DNA from: Bacteroidales bacterium | GTDB lineage: Bacteria; Bacteroidota; Bacteroidia; Bacteroidales; P3 | Length of the DNA: 64,000 nt | Assembly: GCA_017480785.1 (NCBI GenBank) | Contig: JAFURZ010000008.1 | Location: 62,001-126,000 of the forward strand | Direction: 5' to 3' | Shown: positions 8,007-63,000 of the stretch, one piece after another | Position numbering within the stretch: position 1 is the stretch's first letter | Layout: every line of letters starts with the position of its first letter | Notes under the pieces: generated by a model | The model's input: the letters and a program-made list of their open reading frames with translations, nothing else | Databases searched by the model: none | What the model was told of the DNA's origin: nothing | Position numbers and translations under genes: made by a program

Positions 8007-10065
8007 TCTTCACGTTGTATTGCTTGCGCAGGTTCTCGTTCAGGTTCCTTTCCACCTCGTTCTGCCAGGCGTTCAGGTAGTAGCCACGCGCTTGTCCGAT
8101 GCCTTTGAGGCTGCGGGGCAGTATCTCTTCCACGGCAATCAGCCGGTAGCCGGTGTTCTGGTTCACCAGATAGACTCCCCGCTGCCACTGGTCGTCGGCG
8201 AGCAAGCTCTGGCGGCTCTTCTCCACCTGGTCTACGCTGACCTTTATCAGATTGTCGGCAGGGTGTTTCTTCCGGTCAATCTTTTTCATCAGCTGTTGTT
8301 TCATCTCGCTGCTTCCCATCTCCTTCTGCACGGCCTTCTCGATTATCTTCTGTGCCTTCTTGGGTGCCAGCGCGTCGGCATCGGCCACATCAATGACGGT
8401 CACCCGAGCACGGGGGTGGAAGAAGTAGATAGAGTCATCGGGGTTGTCGAGACGCTTGTTGCGGCTCTCACGGGCGTAGAAGTCGACTAATCCTGCCGAG
8501 TCTTCGATGGCCTTGTGCCAGATGAGGGCGTCGTTGTAGTTGAATATCATCAGTCCGCGACGGTATTCCTCGACCACCTGTGCAAACTCCGGATACTCCT
8601 TTTCCAGCTGGCTGTCGGCATAGACGATGGTGACGCTGTCGAGGAACTCCTCATAGCGCTCTTGCAGCAGTTTCCTCATGTTGTCGTAGCGGGCCTTCTT
8701 TTGGTGAGTGGAGATGTAGCGTGCCACGTCGAGTGAGGTGTACCTTCTGTCGGGAGTCACCACTAGGGCACTGGTGTCGACAAACTGGCCTTCGTTGATT
8801 TTCCATCTGCCATAGCGTACCGTGTCGGGTACTACCCGTATCAGCTCGTCGAGCGAAGCCATCATCTTCACCGGGGCTCCTTTCTTCTTGCGCCCTTTCA
8901 CAGTCTGTTTGGCGGGAGTGGTGGTGAGGTCGACGATGCCGTATTTCTTGCGGCAGTTGGCGGCAAAGGTCTTGCGCGACGCATCGCCCCGCTGGTCACG
9001 GGTCATCCGTTGTTTGTAGAAGCCTTCCAGGTCGGTTGCGCCCGGCAGGGTGTCGCGCTGGATGAGTTTGATGATGTGCCATCCGTACTGTGTGAAGAAC
9101 GGCTTGCTGAACTCACCTTCTTTCATCGGCACCAGCTCGTGGATGTATTCCGGCGGCAGTTGCGACAGGGTGGCGTCGGTCAGCACGCCTCCTTTGCTAG
9201 ACGTGGTGCGGTCGTCGCTCTGACGGGCCAGTGCTGTGAAGTTGACGCCCCTCTTCAGCTCGTCGTAAATCTGATAGATTTCCGACCGGCGTGAGGCCGA
9301 GTCGGTGCTGTGCAGCCAGATGTGGGCCATGGTGATTTTCCCGTAGAGCCCTTCCACCCGGTCGAGCAGATTGATGATGTGGTAGCCGAAGCGGGTGCGT
9401 ATGGGCTTGCTCACCTCGCCCACCTTCAGGGCGTAGGCGGCGTTCTCGAAGGGATACACCATCTCGAATACGGTGAAGTAGCCCAGGTCGCCTTCGTTGG
9501 GACGCCTCTTGCCGTCGGGGTCGACCTGGCTGTAGTATTCGGCGGCCACGTCGAAGAACTCCTCTCCTCCGACGGTGATGCGGTTATACAGCTCCATGGC
9601 TTTCTCGTAAGCCTTCGTCGAGTCCTCGGGGGCAGCACTGGCGGGTATCGACACGAGGATATGGGCGGCATGCAGCGAGTAGTGGTTGCGTTCGTAGGCT
9701 TCGGCCAGCAGGTGCTGCAGCACGGCCGAGTCGATGAGGTAGGGAGCCGCCAGCTCTTTGCGGTAGCGCGCGAGCTCGGCTTTCAGGGGTGCCATGGTGT
9801 CGAAGCCACGCTCGTGGGCGTCCAGCAGCTTGGCACGGAACAGGGCGTACAGGTCGACATACTCTTCCAGTGCCGCCCGCTTCTCGGCGTCGGTGATGTC
9901 GTGGCGCTTGTCGAGCTGGGGTTTCACGTTGCTGTTGAACTCCCGCATGAACTCCGAGCTGCGTATCTGTTGCCCGCCCACCTCGATTACCACGGGGTCG
10001 TTCTGTGCCATCAGGCCGAGTGACGAGAGGGCTGCGACAGCCAATGTCATCAGTATTTTCTTCAT
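7972..10065 (-). CDS. Large periplasmic peptidyl-prolyl isomerase with two parvulin domains
   Basis: 697 residues with signal peptide MKKILMTLAVAALSSLGLMAQ. The N-terminal segment is helical (VDLYALFRAKLLDAHERGFD). Two PpiC/parvulin domains follow: HAAHILVSIP through EGDLGYFTVFEMVYPFE and TRFGYHIINL, then MAHIWLHSTDS through KGGVLTDATLSQLPPEY and TQYGWHIIKL. The C-terminal half is a long helical region containing another SurA-like segment. It is probably the major outer-membrane-protein foldase of this three-foldase operon, and lies 12 bp downstream of guaB. Confidence 0.86.
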   Translation of the reverse strand: MKKILMTLAVAALSSLGLMAQNDPVVIEVGGQQIRSSEFMREFNSNVKPQLDKRHDITDAEKRAALEEYVDLYALFRAKLLDAHERGFDTMAPLKAELARYRKELAAPYLIDSAVLQHLLAEAYERNHYSLHAAHILVSIPASAAPEDSTKAYEKAMELYNRITVGGEEFFDVAAEYYSQVDPDGKRRPNEGDLGYFTVFEMVYPFENAAYALKVGEVSKPIRTRFGYHIINLLDRVEGLYGKITMAHIWLHSTDSASRRSEIYQIYDELKRGVNFTALARQSDDRTTSSKGGVLTDATLSQLPPEYIHELVPMKEGEFSKPFFTQYGWHIIKLIQRDTLPGATDLEGFYKQRMTRDQRGDASRKTFAANCRKKYGIVDLTTTPAKQTVKGRKKKGAPVKMMASLDELIRVVPDTVRYGRWKINEGQFVDTSALVVTPDRRYTSLDVARYISTHQKKARYDNMRKLLQERYEEFLDSVTIVYADSQLEKEYPEFAQVVEEYRRGLMIFNYNDALIWHKAIEDSAGLVDFYARESRNKRLDNPDDSIYFFHPRARVTVIDVADADALAPKKAQKIIEKAVQKEMGSSEMKQQLMKKIDRKKHPADNLIKVSVDQVEKSRQSLLADDQWQRGVYLVNQNTGYRLIAVEEILPRSLKGIGQARGYYLNAWQNEVERNLNENLRKQYNVKIDRNVVRSLSF

Positions 10066-11791: not shown

Positions 11792-13969
11792 TTATCGGGA
11801 GTGGTTCCGATAGAGATCGTTAAGGGTGCGGACGGTGACCTTCACTTTGCCGACGTCGGCTTTCGGGTCGACTGGGACGAAGGTGGTGGTGACGCTTTCG
11901 CCAGCCTTGAGGTCGAAGAAGTTACGGGTAAAGTGGCCGTCGATATGCGGCTCGGTGTCGATAAAGACATCGAAAAGGTCCGTCTCGGCTTTCATCGTCA
12001 CCACCAACGAGCCGTCGCTCTGCCAGGCTTGGTTAAATTTGAACTTCGGCTCGGGATAGCTGCGGTCTTTGGGGTAGACGCTATAGTATTGTTCCCATTT
12101 CTTTAGGTCGACGTTGTCGTCAAAGAGGGCTTGGGCGCGGTAGTGCAAGGCTTTCCAATTGCCGTAGTAGTCGATGCTGCTCCACGAGGCGACGGGCCAG
12201 CAGTCGTTGAGCTGCCAGTAGAGGGTGCCGTCGCAGCGTGGGTCGCTGATGTGGCACAGTATGCCGTAGCCGGTGCCCCAGGCCTGCAGCAGCTGGCTGA
12301 CGTAGCAGAAGTCCTCCAAGGAGAGGCTTTTGCTGTCGAAGCCGTAGTACTGTCGCATGGCCTTGTCGATGATTTGCAGGCCGCGGCCGTGCTTCTGGTG
12401 GCTGCGGAGGGTGGGGGAGTCTATATATAGTTGGTCTTCAGGGCAGAACTGCTTGATTGTAGACAGCATGGGGTAGCTCTGGAAGCCGTATTCGCTCATA
12501 AAGCGGCCGGTCTTCTCCTTGTACACCTCGAAGGGCTGTTCTCCCCACCAGACGCCCCAGTAGTGGCTGTCGCCGTGGGTGGTGCACTCGGGGTGGCCCC
12601 AGCCGTAGAGCGGCGAGGTGGTGATATAGGGGCGGCCGTAGGGGTCGCAGTCGCGGACGGCTTGGGCCAAAATAGCCTCACCCCCGCCCCCTCTCCGGTT
12701 GGAGAGGGGAGTAGATACCTTATGCTTGCCTCCCCCCTCTCCAATCGGAGAGGGACCGGGGGTGAGGCCGAAGATAGTATCTATTGCATGTTCTAGGCGT
12801 GCGCGCTGCTCGGGGGTCCAGTTGAATTGGCTTTGCCAGCCCCAGTCTTCCCAGCCGTTCTTCACCTCGTTGTTGCCGCACCAGAGGACGACGCAGGGGT
12901 ACTTGGCAATCCTTGTGACATTCTGGCGGGCCTCCTTCTTGATGCTCTCCAGCATTTCCGTGTTATCAGGGTAGAGCATGGTAGAGAAATTGAAGTCCAT
13001 CCAGACCATGAGGCCCAGCGAGTCGCAGAGGTCGAAGAAGTAGTCGTGCTCATAGATGCCGCCGCCCCAGACGCGTAGCATGTTGAAGCCCGCCTCCTTG
13101 GCCGAGGTGAGCAACAGGCGATAGCGGTCTCTATTGGCCTTGTCGTCGATGGGGAAGCTGTGGACGGGAATCCAGTTGGCGCCCTTGATGAAGAGCCTCA
13201 CCCCAGCCTCACCCCCGCCCCCACTCCGATTGGAGAGGGGAGTGGATACCCCTGTGTCGGCAACAAAATAGAACGACTGTCCTATGCTGTCTTGTTCTTG
13301 CATCAGGCGCACATTACGATAAGGAAAGCCATCAGCTCCCCTCTCCACTCGGAGAGGGGTAAGGGGGTGAGGCCGGTTGGTGATATACACCCTCTTCCAT
13401 ATTCCGCAGGTGGGCAGTTTGGGACCCCAGTCCCAGCCCTGCTGGTAGGGCGCGATGCGGGTGAAGGCGCGGCGGTCGGGCAACGGGATGCCGTAGAATG
13501 CCTCTTCAATCGAGTCTTCGAGCGGGATAAAGGTAACTTTGACGTTGATGGAGTCTTCGATGTTATGAAATGAAAAGGCATACTGGCAAAACATGTTATC
13601 TGCATCGGGCACCCAAAGCAGGTGTTCGTAAGTGCCCTGGGTGTTCGAGATGCGGATGTCCGCACGGCCGGCGAGACCTTCAAAGACAATCCGGAGGCTG
13701 TCGCCTTCGGGCAAGTCTTTCTTCAGCAGCGTGGTTCGGTAGGTCCACACGCTGTCCGCCACCCACCGCACCGAGTCCTCGTTGGTGCTGAGGTACGGGT
13801 CGGGGATCAGTCCGTTGGCCATCAGGTCGGTGTGGATAAACCCCGGCACTGTGGCGGGATACCACTCGCCGTTGTATTTGAACTGCCATTCGGTCAGCTC
13901 CACCGTGTCAGTCTTCGTCGTGCATGCCGCCAGCAGCAGCGGCATCAGGATGTAGGCTATGCGTTTCAT
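11792..13969 (-). CDS. GH2 beta-mannosidase lipoprotein carrying repeat insertions, missing beta-sandwich domains
   Basis: 725-residue lipoprotein (lipobox LLLAAC) of the GH2 beta-mannosidase group, expected to remove terminal beta-mannose. The jelly-roll domain (TVPGFIHTDLM, YQQGWDWGP, TCGIWKRVYI) and the TIM barrel (FIKGANWIP, NMLRVWGGGIYE) are present. The acid/base Glu is in WCGNNEVKNGW and the nucleophile in MSEYGFQSYP, so catalysis could be retained. Between KRVYI and VRLMQEQDSIG the second (Ig-like) domain of about 90 residues seen in homologues is replaced by a few repeat-derived residues. A C-terminal sandwich also looks shortened after WKALHYRAQ. A 31-residue repeat-encoded insert (SPIGEG, PLSNRRG) lies before ILAQAVRD. 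Start chosen at MKRIAYIL, 2 bp from the DUF486 stop. It may be decaying. Confidence 0.85.
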   Translation of the reverse strand: MKRIAYILMPLLLAACTTKTDTVELTEWQFKYNGEWYPATVPGFIHTDLMANGLIPDPYLSTNEDSVRWVADSVWTYRTTLLKKDLPEGDSLRIVFEGLAGRADIRISNTQGTYEHLLWVPDADNMFCQYAFSFHNIEDSINVKVTFIPLEDSIEEAFYGIPLPDRRAFTRIAPYQQGWDWGPKLPTCGIWKRVYITNRPHPLTPLRVERGADGFPYRNVRLMQEQDSIGQSFYFVADTGVSTPLSNRSGGGGEAGVRLFIKGANWIPVHSFPIDDKANRDRYRLLLTSAKEAGFNMLRVWGGGIYEHDYFFDLCDSLGLMVWMDFNFSTMLYPDNTEMLESIKKEARQNVTRIAKYPCVVLWCGNNEVKNGWEDWGWQSQFNWTPEQRARLEHAIDTIFGLTPGPSPIGEGGGKHKVSTPLSNRRGGGGEAILAQAVRDCDPYGRPYITTSPLYGWGHPECTTHGDSHYWGVWWGEQPFEVYKEKTGRFMSEYGFQSYPMLSTIKQFCPEDQLYIDSPTLRSHQKHGRGLQIIDKAMRQYYGFDSKSLSLEDFCYVSQLLQAWGTGYGILCHISDPRCDGTLYWQLNDCWPVASWSSIDYYGNWKALHYRAQALFDDNVDLKKWEQYYSVYPKDRSYPEPKFKFNQAWQSDGSLVVTMKAETDLFDVFIDTEPHIDGHFTRNFFDLKAGESVTTTFVPVDPKADVGKVKVTVRTLNDLYRNHSR
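12675..12768. repeat. Full palindromic repeat element inserted in the mannosidase gene
   Basis: 94 bp bounded by 11-bp terminal inverted repeats (GCCTCACCCCC and GGGGGTGAGGC). Inside are two small hairpins of the type CTCTCCGGTTGGAGAG. It is read through in frame and encodes the SPIGEG and PLSNRRGGGGE peptides. The same element occurs at 15165-15269. Confidence 0.92.
13194..13250. repeat. Half palindromic element in the mannosidase gene (left half)
   Basis: AGCCTCACCCC is followed by a second copy AGCCTCACCCCC and one hairpin (ACTCCGATTGGAGAGGGG). It encodes STPLSNRSGGGGEAG just before FIKGANWIP. The duplicated end suggests an imprecise recombination. Confidence 0.85.
13335..13373. repeat. 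Half palindromic element in the mannosidase gene (right half)
   Basis: One hairpin (CTCCCCTCTCC, ACT, CGGAGAGGGG) is followed by GGGGGTGAGGC, the other terminal repeat. It encodes PHPLTPLRVERGA exactly where the Ig-like domain of the GH2 enzyme should begin. About 85 bp of native coding sequence separates it from the left half. Confidence 0.85.
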
Positions 13970-13971
13970 AA

Positions 13972-14349
13972 TCATTTCGTTTTCCAAAAGGCGAAGACCA
14001 CTGCCAGGATGATGAAGAGGAAGCTGACGAGGTGGTTCCAGCGGATGGGCTCGCTCTTGAAAACGGTGGCCACGATGATGGTGAAGACCGTCAGCGAAAT
14101 GCACTCGGCCAGTATCTTCAGCTGCATCAGCGAGAAAGGGCCGCCGTTGATTTGGCTGCCGATGCGGTTGGCCGGTATCATAAACGAGTACTCGAAGAAA
14201 GCCACGCCCCACGAGGTGAGAATGATGAGTATCAGTGGCCAGCTGGTGTTTATCTTCAGTTCGGTGAGCTTGAGGTTGCCGTACCAGGCGAAGGTCATGA
14301 AGATGTTGCTGACGATGAGCAGCAGGACGGTGATCAGTGCTTTGGGCAT
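13972..14349 (-). CDS. DUF486 family membrane protein
   Basis: 125 residues with four predicted membrane helices, of the small DMT-like DUF486 family (FMTFAWYGNLK, SWGVAFFEYSFMIPANRIG). The function of the family is unknown. The fold resembles half of a drug/metabolite transporter. It ends 2 bp before the mannosidase start and begins 8 bp after cinA, inside the hydF-folA-cinA operon. Confidence 0.85.
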   Translation of the reverse strand: MPKALITVLLLIVSNIFMTFAWYGNLKLTELKINTSWPLILIILTSWGVAFFEYSFMIPANRIGSQINGGPFSLMQLKILAECISLTVFTIIVATVFKSEPIRWNHLVSFLFIILAVVFAFWKTK

Positions 14350-14357
14350 TATAAGGT

Positions 14358-15689
14358 TTAAGGTTTAAGGAGTTTTATGAGCATGGAGTAGGCCTGATTG
14401 GTTGTGCGGTCGATGTTCTGCTGGCGACGGCGGCCAGGGAAGTTCAGCAGCTGGGCCTCGGTGTGCGTGGCGTCGGCCACGGCAATCCACACCGTGCCGA
14501 CGGGCTTCTCGGGCGTGCCGCCGTCGGGCCCGGCGATGCCGGTGGTGGCGATGGCCAGGTCGGCGCCGAGGCGCTGGCGCACCTCTTCGGCCATCTCGCG
14601 GGCGGTCTCCTCGCTTACGGCGCCGTGGGCCTCCAGCGTGCTGTGCTTTACGCCGAGGGCGCATTCCTTCACCTCGTTGCTGTAGGCCACCACGCCGCCA
14701 CGGAAGTAGGCCGAGGCGCCGGTCTGGGCTGTCAGCTGGCTGGCAATTGTGCCGCCGGTGCAGCTCTCGGCGGTGGCCAGGGTCTTGCCCTTGGAGATAA
14801 GCGTCTTGTGCACCAGTTCGGCCAGGGTCTCGCAGTCTTCGCCGACGATGTATTGTCCGGCCAATTCGTAGAGCCCTGGCAGTACACTGGATATACTAGG
14901 CTCTCTGGAATCTCTAGGATATCTGGCCGTGAGTCGCAGTTTGGTCATCCCCGCCACGGGCAGGTAGGCCAGCTTGATATGCTTGGGCAGCGAGAGCTCC
15001 CACGGCTCTATCAAATCGGATAGGAATGATTCCCCGATGCCTTGAACGAGTATGTTCTTGTTGATGATGGTTTCGGTGAGCAGGTGCTCCTGCAGCTTGG
15101 GAATGACGCGGTTCTGCATCAGCCACTCCATCTCGAAAGGTACTCCCGGCAGGGAGACCAGAACAGTCTCACCCCCGACCCCTCTCCGATTGGAGAGGGG
15201 AGTGGTTACCGGTGCACAGTCTTGCATTCTACCCCCCTCTCCAATCGGAGAGGGGCTGGGGGTGAGGCTAAACCACATGCACGGTGCCGTGCCGAGGTCG
15301 TTGTTCAGCACCTCGCAGCATTCGGGCACGAGGGCCTGGGCACGGTTGACGGGCGTCAGTTCGAAGCCGCGCACGGCAAAGATGCGCCGCACGTTCTCCA
15401 GCGCCACGGGGCTCTCCACCAGCTTGCTGCGGAAGCGGTCGCACAGCACCTGCTTGGTGATGTCGTCCTTGGTGGGGCCGAGGCCGCCGGTGACCAGCAC
15501 CACGTCGTAGTGCTCCATGCCGTCGTCGATGGCCTTGGCAATGTCGGCACGGGTGTCGCCCACCACCTCCACTGCGGCCACCTCGAAGCCAGCCTCGGTG
15601 AGCATCCGGCCCATCGTGGAGGCATTGGTGTTGACGACCTGCCCGATGAGCAGTTCGTCGCCTATGTTGATAATCTTTACTACGTTCAT
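14358..15689 (-). CDS. cinA: CinA: nicotinamide-nucleotide amidase / competence-damage protein with a repeat-encoded insert
   Basis: 443 residues. The N-terminal COG1058 (MoaB-like) domain has IINIGDELLIGQVVNTN and TGGLGPTKDD; the C-terminal PncC-like nicotinamide mononucleotide deamidase domain has TAESCTGG, YFRGGVVAYSNEVK and TTGIAGPDGGTPEKPVGTVW. The protein recycles pyridine nucleotides. About 35 residues (SPSPIGEGG to PLSNRRGVGGE) are encoded by a palindromic element between APCMWF and VLVSLPGVPFEM, which are adjacent in homologues. The frame is preserved and all catalytic motifs downstream are intact. A nonamer array encodes part of RYPRDSREPSISS. The start ATG overlaps the folA stop (ATGA). 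Confidence 0.93.
   Translation of the reverse strand: MNVVKIINIGDELLIGQVVNTNASTMGRMLTEAGFEVAAVEVVGDTRADIAKAIDDGMEHYDVVLVTGGLGPTKDDITKQVLCDRFRSKLVESPVALENVRRIFAVRGFELTPVNRAQALVPECCEVLNNDLGTAPCMWFSLTPSPSPIGEGGRMQDCAPVTTPLSNRRGVGGETVLVSLPGVPFEMEWLMQNRVIPKLQEHLLTETIINKNILVQGIGESFLSDLIEPWELSLPKHIKLAYLPVAGMTKLRLTARYPRDSREPSISSVLPGLYELAGQYIVGEDCETLAELVHKTLISKGKTLATAESCTGGTIASQLTAQTGASAYFRGGVVAYSNEVKECALGVKHSTLEAHGAVSEETAREMAEEVRQRLGADLAIATTGIAGPDGGTPEKPVGTVWIAVADATHTEAQLLNFPGRRRQQNIDRTTNQAYSMLIKLLKP
14880..14924. repeat. Tandem nonamer array inside cinA
   Basis: Consecutive 9-bp units GGATATACT, AGGCTCTCT, GGAATCTCT and AGGATATCT, with a weaker fifth at 14880, share the pattern RGRNTMTCT. Because 9 is a multiple of 3 they stay in frame and encode the tripeptides RYP, RDS, REP and SIS. 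Confidence 0.6.
15165..15269. repeat. Full palindromic repeat element inserted in cinA
   Basis: 105 bp running from AGTCTCACCCCC to GGGGGTGAGGCT, with two internal hairpins (CCTCTCCGATTGGAGAGG and CCTCTCCAATCGGAGAGG). 105 bp is 35 codons, so the host frame is kept. It matches the element at 12675-12768 in ends, hairpins and encoded peptides. Confidence 0.93.
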
Positions 15690-60007: not shown

Positions 60008-63000
60008 TCAATCGTTTATCAGAACATCCAATACATCTTCAATACCCAACTCCGTAATCCTGTTCAGCAGTCGCTTGGCTTCGTCCAACGTCTTTATATC
60101 CTTTACTCTACCACGCGCCATTGCCACTTTCATTTGTGAACCGTAGGTGGTAGTTGACTCTTCTGCAACCTTGCTTACGTTGTCGAGGTCTATCTTGTCA
60201 ACTATTCGGATAGTATTATTACTGGATAGATTTGTTGGCGACATTTGACTCAGTCTCCAGTCCTTCAACTTTTCGGCCACATCAGCTTCTGTCCACAAAC
60301 CCACCTCTGCCTGCATGTTCTGTTGCACATACAGTTTGGCATCATCCAGTTCATTGGGCTTCAATCCCACTTTGTCTTGGGAGAACAAGAACTGCTCGTA
60401 TCCTTCGATGAAGTTGTTTTGCTTGTCGGTAACGGTGAGCAATCCACGGAATTCAAAGTCGTAATTCTTCAGCAATTCCAGAGTCTCTGTCATCAACGCG
60501 GGATTTTTCATTCCATCGGGTTCGCAAATACGCAGCAGGTTATCCACTAACTGGCATAAATTGTTGCGCATCGCATTTTTGGGCATCGATTTGCAGTATT
60601 TCAATCCCCACAACGGGGCGCCTTTCTCTTTCAAATAGGCGTGAGTCAATGCCCAGCGGGCATCAGTCAAACTACTCACATCATGATAGTCTTTTAGCGT
60701 ATTGAGTTTAAACAGGTTGATGAACTGCTTTGCCAACTGGCCCTCTTCTTTGGTTTGGAACTTGAACTCAAGTTTATTGCGGTTTCCGCCACCATCCCAT
60801 ACTTTGAACAATTCCGCCACATCGTCTACAAGATGTTTTGCTGTGCGAGGTTTTCCATTGAGATCAAATATCTTGCCAATATAGGGGCGCAAGGCAAACG
60901 CCACCATTCCCATACCTGCGTGTGAGGGAAACAAGCCATAGGGCGGCTTGGTCAATGCTTCCAAATGATACGACAGGTTGAAGTTGGCCGACTTGTCTGC
61001 ATGGTCAATCTTGCTCTTCACGAACTTGCACACCTTCACCAAGGGATGATTGGGGTCAACGTCATCTTTGAATTGCAGGTTCTCGTCCACGCTGTCCTGT
61101 AGCAGGAAGTTCATGTGCATGGCCGGTCCTTTGCAGCGGTCGCACACCTCCTGCTTTGTGTTGAATTGCAGCACCGCCTCTACGGTAGCTTTCACAAACT
61201 GCTTCTTCCAGTAGGTGGTGGAGGACTTCAGACGTATCAACTCCAATCCTTCGGGACCTGCGGGGAAAATCATAGGAGCAATACTGCTGTTGATGAAAGA
61301 GGTAATTCTACCGGCATCTATACTCAACGGATCGGTGACGCTTGCGGGTTTGTTGCTAAGATAGATGTATGTTATTCCTCTCATCGCACTCTCCACCCAC
61401 TCTTTCACCATCTGCTCAGCATTGTCAGTATGCGATTTCATCTGGTCGGCAAATCCGTGCCGTTGGGCACATTGTGCATTGGCTTGATATTCGATAAATC
61501 GCTCATATTCACCATCACCCAAGCTCTTATCCATCACCAGGAATACGACATCTTTGTATTTCCCGTCCTCATCTTTCGCGGATTCTTCTGCTATCTGACG
61601 CAGCTCTATCAGTTCGTCGGCATTGCGGGCAAAGAACATAGCCAGCATCAGTTCATATCCTTGTGCTTTCTTTGCTGTACGTTCCATGCTGCTCAACAGA
61701 GTGTATTTGTTGGAGTCCAACGAGAAAAACTCAAGCCAATAAGGACGTGCAACATTGGCCAGTTTCTTCTCCACAACCGTGCGGGCCGTATTGAAAGCAC
61801 GAAGTATATTGTAGGTGTATCTGAACTCTGTCAGTTTGAGGTTTTGTTTGATGTCGTTCACCTCACCCAGCGGCAATGCCGAGAAGCGTATCTCGTACAA
61901 CCCGGAGGGTGATCGTTGGATGACACCCGCTTCGTTCAACCATCCGAGAATGTCATTCAGTTGCGGTTCAACGGTTGTGCCAATGAATAGGTTGGCTATG
62001 TTCTCCTCGCTGGGTGTGACTGTTTCGGTATTGGCTATATTGTTGAATGCATTCAGTAGCAGTATTCCCTTAAATACCCGCATGGTGGCTTCACCTTGAT
62101 GCTCTACCGTTTTCTGATAGGAATTGAATCGCTCGTTCACCACACCGAATTTGCTGACATTCTGCTGCATCTCGGGCATGATGTAATCCCATAGGTAATC
62201 CACCGTAATGGTTTCTCCTTGTTTAAATACTTTTGAATCATTTAGGAATTCCCTTACAGGGTCGCTGGCAAGGAAATCGAACACCGAGCGGCTACTGCTT
62301 CCCACCTCACGGGCATAGTAGGTGGCCAGGTTGGCGGTGGCTGGATGCAGCGGGAAAAGATTCTTGAGGTCTTTCTCTGTTTCTGCAGGCTGATTACTGG
62401 TTTGTGCCAGTTGTGAGTAGAGATTCTTTGCCTCAAAATAGAAAGTTGCCGATGCTGTCACCTCGCTCAGGGGGACTATCTGACGGAACTTGCGGCTCAT
62501 AATCTTGAAGGCCGACACGGGTTCCATATTATAGTGCAGATAATGATATCGGCCAATGGTCTTGGTGCGCTCCTGTGCACTCAGGCGGTCGAGTGCCGAC
62601 GGGTGTGAGATGAACAGGAAGTAACTATCGTTGTCGGCATTCATGGCCTCCTCTGCCAATAATTGCAACTCTACCAGGATAGATATTCCAAGTTCTGATT
62701 TCACAACATCGGTAAACTCGTCCCACACTACCAGAAGGCCATTGTAGGCAGACTTCTCTCGTAGGAGGTTCTGTACCTCAAAGAACCAACGGCCAAGGTT
62801 CTCCTGACGCAGACGCACGCTGAGGCCTTGCCGACGACATGCATCTTTGGCTTTTCGCAAGGTTGCGCTGTCATAATCACGCAGCAATTTCACCAGTCTT
62901 TTGCGGTCGGGCGCGATGGAACGAAGTTCGGCATCCGCAGCAATGGTCAAATCCCAGAAACTGGCATTATGCTCGATGTGTTGAATATAGTTGTCGTAGT

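Follow-up and report, generated by a model that had tools for sequence, protein, structure and literature searches.

A palindromic repeat in frame within CinA of a Bacteroidales bacterium: a probable MITE-like, protein-compatible element with DUF559 as candidate mobiliser

A 105-bp palindromic segment lies within the cinA reading frame of a Bacteroidales bacterium, which raises the question of whether a mobile repeat has donated a peptide to this protein and, if so, what moved it. The window, that is, the whole stretch of 64,000 nucleotides that was analysed, is part of the 2.25-Mb genome (92% complete) of a gut bacterium. A sequence-only reading had proposed an element with terminal inverted repeats and two internal hairpins, without a stop in the host frame, adding about 35 residues between motifs that lie close together in homologues, and behaving like the Rickettsia palindromic elements (RPE). 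Our results bear out this description and, on the basis of sequence comparison, support the notion that the insert is probably one copy of a mobile palindromic family, MITE-like and compatible with protein coding, for which DUF559 is a candidate mobiliser. The features of the locus are collected in Table 1.

Table 1. Features of the cinA locus and of the adjoining reading frame, in window coordinates
Feature	Position	Strand	Basis or remark
cinA ORF (443 aa), host of the insert	14358..15689	-	ORF list, Pfam
Whole palindromic element in cinA, 105 bp including outer bases	15165..15269	-	encodes SLTPSPSPIGEGGRMQDCAPVTTPLSNRRGVGGE in frame
Left arm, CTCACCCCC..hairpin, 33 bp	15168..15200	+	core arm
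Element interior, 33 bp	15201..15233	.	by eye the family's 24-bp interior plus 9 extra bases
Right arm, inverted, 33 bp	15234..15266	-	core arm
Glycoside hydrolase 2 (GH2) type ORF adjoining cinA, with in-frame arms	11792..14212	-	ORF, Pfam, codon model
Second complete element (90 bp), in frame within the GH2 ORF	12677..12766	-	
Single arm, in frame within the GH2 ORF	13208..13240	-	
Degenerate inverted arm in the GH2 ORF, about 100 bp from the arm at 13208..13240	13338..13370	-	

The inverted arms of the element (15165-15203 and 15231-15269) are 39 nt long, 90% complementary and 27 nt apart. The 33-bp core arms follow the layout CTCACCCCC-xx-CCCCTCTCC-loop-GGAGAGGGG, the second arm being the reverse complement of the first, and the two internal hairpins have 9 bp each. 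The cinA reading frame is open throughout the element, with 35 residues at the site. Pfam placed a MoCF_biosynth domain across the insert and a CinA domain downstream of it, both above the cut-off, and CinA_KH slightly under it. In an AlphaFold model of the protein (mean pLDDT 83, pTM 0.61, built on 28 sequences), the only segments of at least three residues with a pLDDT below 50 were residues 13-16 and 144-172, the latter being the turn between predicted strands 137-142 and 175-179. The insert site is thereby predicted to be a disordered loop. Among the NCBIfam models matched when two proteins were searched, none was named for the inserted peptide.

Comparison with relatives, which come from Bacteroidales assemblies, many of rumen or gut origin, indicates that the insert is absent from them. 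The site could be read by motif, from GTAPCMWF to VSLPGVP, in 77 of the 80 CinA orthologues kept; 51 of these have just 4-6 residues there and the other 26 have 8-53, versus 35 here. Neither the insert nor its SPIGEG residues occurred in any of the 77, and none encoded the same residues without the palindromic DNA. The same turn has nevertheless received other sequences: at least 14 residues are present in 15 of the 77, and L060, which the motif search overlooked, also has a long insert. By eye, at least ten of these 16 long inserts (at least 10 of the 80 orthologues) are other inverted or tandem repeats unrelated to the element, namely heptamer families in L047, L096, L121 and L122 and further repeats in L051, L056, L060, L062, L075 and L085. 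Genome-wide copies of these other repeats were counted for the heptamer alone: matches, overlaps included, numbered 26, 16, 16 and 131 in four genomes with the heptamer in CinA (reversed-pattern controls 0, 1, 0 and 2) versus 3, 0, 2 and 7 in four genomes without it (controls 4, 2, 0 and 0). TsaD presents a parallel case: in G094 and G001, which are closely related to one another, it has a different repeat where the source genome has its element. The turns in CinA and TsaD, at which unrelated repeats have landed in related species, amount to natural experiments that reveal which loops accept new peptides.

The element is a multi-copy repeat. The genome contains 50 exact copies of its 22-bp hairpin core, and 84 when up to three mismatches are allowed, versus 0 and 1 for the reversed control pattern, and a BLAST search of the element against the genome returned 117 pieces (40 of the 51 first-look candidates were scored). 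The 464,652 bases around the copies yielded 79 arms that match at 26 or more of the 33 positions; these form 25 pairs and 29 single arms. The 84 cores suggest that a few copies lie outside this examined set. Of the 54 elements, 37 were classed as in frame within genes, 5 as in frame at the end of a gene, 2 as the arms of the DUF559 gene and 10 as intergenic. No gene-breaking element was seen among the 54, a count in which a split gene could pass as two genes and in which the intergenic calls checked by ORF reading are those of the fab cluster; the bias for frame preservation that a protein-compatible repeat should display is thus strong. The classification drew on a codon-usage model, stop-to-stop ORFs, Pfam, frame profiles, ORF lists and direct translation. 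The codon model agreed on both flanks for 35 of the 37 intragenic calls, with small margins at several places, and the GT2 and third UvrA arms were called in frame from Pfam and PDB homology. Frames that had seemed shifted or ambiguous at a GNAT gene, at the start of PagL and at the end of a DUF6266 gene turned out on frame-by-frame reading to be open and at gene ends.

A Pfam match was obtained for 24 of the 25 host ORFs, the exception being L016, which holds three elements, and the hosts include UvrA, RadA, TruB, TsaD, NqrA and ABC-F. The hosts that were aligned are homologous to their families on either side of the insert, and alignment to solved homologues showed the inserts as extra residues in TruB, UvrA (four arms), TsaD, NqrA and RadA, as well as for the second of the two inserts in ABC-F. 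The four in-frame arms of UvrA (L039, 8051-11044) all fall within residues 158-316, where solved UvrA aligns less well. Inverted arms also enclose 80-100 bp apparently native to the gene at C8:41832-41978 and C8:42733-42893 (L026) and at 13208-13370 in the window; such pairs look as if they were separate nearby insertions.

Fourteen pairs measure exactly 90 bp, all of them intragenic, and their 24-bp interiors are mostly alike. When all 25 pairs are considered, interior lengths that are multiples of three occur in 16 of 18 intragenic pairs, in neither of the two gene-end pairs and in none of the five intergenic ones (intragenic versus intergenic, p = 6e-4), and the frames of the two remaining intragenic pairs are still open; this count replaced one on the 90- and 99-bp pairs alone (15/15), which is circular. 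The phase is biased too. Of 62 arms located in 25 ORFs, 36 are Y arms, and 32 of these are read in phase 0 even though the Y arm is open in all three phases (binomial p = 7e-12 if copies were independent, which they are not), and the R arm lies in its stop phase in 1 of 26 cases, a degenerate copy without the stop. Stop avoidance alone is insufficient for this phase bias; thus, selection on the peptide (SLTPxPSPIGEG..STPLSNRRGxGGEA) or a target preference must be added.

A candidate for the activity that moves the family lies between its own arms. The source genome has a single DUF559 match, the domain of which (C8:60983-61300) is situated between arms at 60921-60953 and 61366-61398, the former encoded within the last codons of the DUF559 ORF. 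Among 120 genomes of the genus, DUF559 was detected at E <1e-30 in all nine with at least 10 arms (source included) versus 3 of the 111 others (Fisher p = 2e-11; the cuts were set once the data had been inspected); at the loosest cut (any arm, E <1e-20) the figures were 13 of 31 versus 9 of 89 (p = 2e-4). Flanking inverted repeats scoring at least 14, a cut also chosen after seeing the data, were found at 26 of 43 DUF559 loci, whereas none of 240 random positions and none of 86 control positions within those loci scored as high. The 43 loci remained after 17 of the 60 fetched, which were shorter than 3,200 bases, had been dropped; 17 of them have no strong flanking inverted repeat, and some of the scored repeats are self-palindromic hairpins. 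Of 17 stretches around widely spaced or clustered arms, five contain a small coding region enclosed by a pair of arms, and this region is DUF559 by search in L134, L135 and L136 and by eye in L139 and L140. There are exceptions: the arms around DUF559 in G464 face outward (L137), the DUF559 gene of G205 is beside the arms and not between them (L141), G047 has 26 arms yet the repeats round its DUF559 gene look different, and G105 has DUF559 and no arm. The loops of the DUF559-flanking arms are of the genome's commonest type, own arms counted and among those listed, in G000, G001 (one of two copies) and G094; G047 does not fit. The FabF-FabZ gap is empty in G084, contains a 134-bp pair in G000 and a DUF559 element in G094, and the right interiors in the latter two are alike by eye. 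These associations suggest that the family has a gene-bearing form, with DUF559 between the same arms, of which the short palindromes look like deletion derivatives.

DUF559 is also found inside host proteins, and many of its matches are located in long open frames. Ten hand-chosen ORFs (nine of at least 14 long open frames, plus L135), all of which hold DUF559, have it in frame with domains of LeuRS (3), MetH (3), HsdR (3) and a DegT-type aminotransferase (1). The LeuRS insertion amounts to about 160 residues and falls between positions 236 and 240 of the Thermus enzyme. The loci with DUF559 in a host are L185, L188, L135, L194, L200, L202, L190, L193, L198 and L161. A Foldseek search of the PDB with the predicted DUF559 fold returned 3HRL first and then I-Bth0305I (3r3p; E = 1.7e-4, TM 0.79-0.81 on the target), with a weak match to Vsr (E = 0.008), and an alignment of 17 sequences shows no variation at D59, E70, D72 and H76. 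The predicted structure therefore matches a homing-endonuclease-like fold.

The arms are widespread. Their 16-base motif was detected in 31 of the 120 genomes of the genus and in 48 of 395 sampled genomes of the phylum (33 of 171 genera), many of the genomes used being draft assemblies; the reversed motif matched in two genomes at most. At the GT1 site and the second transglutaminase site, G001 and the source genome have an element at the same place, so these copies may be old. Same-site elements were seen in G000 and G001 (L223, about 9381-9543; L222, about 9385-9458), in which the stems are paired and the loops differ; loop differences at common sites hint at gene conversion within each genome. 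No target duplication was visible by eye at the element flanks, and the empty-site alignments were too diverged to reveal one.

Other explanations have to be weighed against mobilisation by DUF559. It has some appeal, but is in our opinion unlikely, that another activity moves the palindromic arms, which would be the primary unit, and that DUF559 was caught between them and rides along. Single arms do exist, inverted arms also enclose native protein sequence, and 18 of the 31 arm-bearing genomes of the genus lack DUF559 at E <1e-20 (16 of these have at most four arms and two have five). However, in other parts of the phylum DUF559 genes are accompanied by different inverted hairpin repeats built in a similar way, so that such a capture would have to be repeated frequently. 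Slightly less plausible again is that the arms are the terminal repeats of a Y1 tyrosine transposase of the REP-associated type, DUF559 being a mere passenger. The arm end GGGGTGAG fits the GGGGWSAS terminal motif described for TIRYT repeats (PMC3733652), and the source genome has three Y1_Tnp matches; none of the three has arms, however, and the 8-base motif was matched just twice, in isolation, within these loci and the 1.5 kb to either side. It is DUF559 and not Y1 that lies between the arms in the source genome, and DUF559 tracks the arm number in the genus. On the evidence of the three matches in this genome, the Y1 transposase was set aside as mobiliser. Two of the Y1_Tnp genes, L042 and L043 (C14:7456 and C11:50999), were seen by eye to be near a repeat-like segment, RGxxPT...SPAGATQ, which may represent a separate REP-like family.

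We give little credence to the idea that nothing moved and that loops prone to repeats expanded locally, by slippage or template switching. In its favour, several of the other inserts in CinA consist of short repeats in tandem or inverted order, but the 90-bp pair with its 24-bp interior, mostly similar from copy to copy, occupies 14 places in nine unrelated ORFs. Least credible of all is removal of the insert before or during translation, by splicing or by ribosomal bypass of the hairpin. The high stability of the hairpin in CinA (gene-strand RNA fold -81 kcal/mol, z -10.2, equalled by none of 200 shuffles) speaks for it, but removal would need neither an open frame nor a preferred phase, and both are seen.

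To our knowledge, the route by which protein-coding palindromes spread has been unclear so far. The family described here combines terminal inverted repeats with many copies, as MITEs do. If DUF559 is the mobiliser, it would cut DNA at the arms or at target sites, perhaps as a dimer on the inverted arms, and repair of the break would then copy the element and lead to its spread. Insertions within genes would survive when they are short, keep the frame and contribute a flexible peptide to a loop that tolerates it; translation would run straight through the mRNA, with nothing spliced out. We also propose, more tentatively and with rather more doubt than conviction, a class of non-splicing, protein-compatible homing elements, in which a DUF559 gene between hairpin arms inserts in frame in conserved proteins and is retained, and arm-only derivatives spread as translated palindromes. 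Such a class, if real, would supply the missing mobiliser for RPE-like repeats, and unrelated repeats would meanwhile keep sampling the same tolerant loops. With a candidate enzyme located between these very repeats, the spread of protein-coding palindromes becomes directly testable, and the predicted proteins of such bacteria will contain repeat-born segments. No link between DUF559 and hairpin repeats was found in open-licence papers, which is weak evidence of novelty.

Among known systems, RPE are the closest in behaviour: they are described as multi-copy palindromes of about 100-150 bp that lie in frame in unrelated conserved genes (PMC10969869, PMC2229807), and TruB is listed among their hosts as well (PMC3733652). 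The comparison with Rickettsia made in the sequence-only reading therefore holds for behaviour, that is, in-frame insertion in unrelated genes; the phylum, however, is another one and a putative nuclease gene lies between the same arms here. REP, TIRtron and TIRYT repeats likewise form hairpins, often in inverted pairs, with intragenic copies reported in repair genes such as uvrA (PMC3733652), and TIRYT share the terminal motif noted above. In contrast to REPs, the arm ends lack a GTAG or CGTC tag: the arms start with CTCACC, their outer flanks are mostly AGC/GCT, and some interiors have AGTAG on the other side of the hairpin (by eye). The arms are also mostly intragenic, whereas most REPs are described as intergenic (PMC3733652), and, unlike in TIRYT, no Y1 transposase lies between arms in the source genome. 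Finally, EDxHD homing endonucleases, represented by I-Bth0305I, have a catalytic fold similar to that predicted for DUF559; a DUF559 gene has already been placed in this family (PMC9403480), and dimerisation on a target of almost 60 bp has been described for I-Bth0305I (PMC3943268). What distinguishes the elements presented in this work is that DUF559 lies in frame in host proteins, between hairpin arms, and is accompanied by putative short derivatives.
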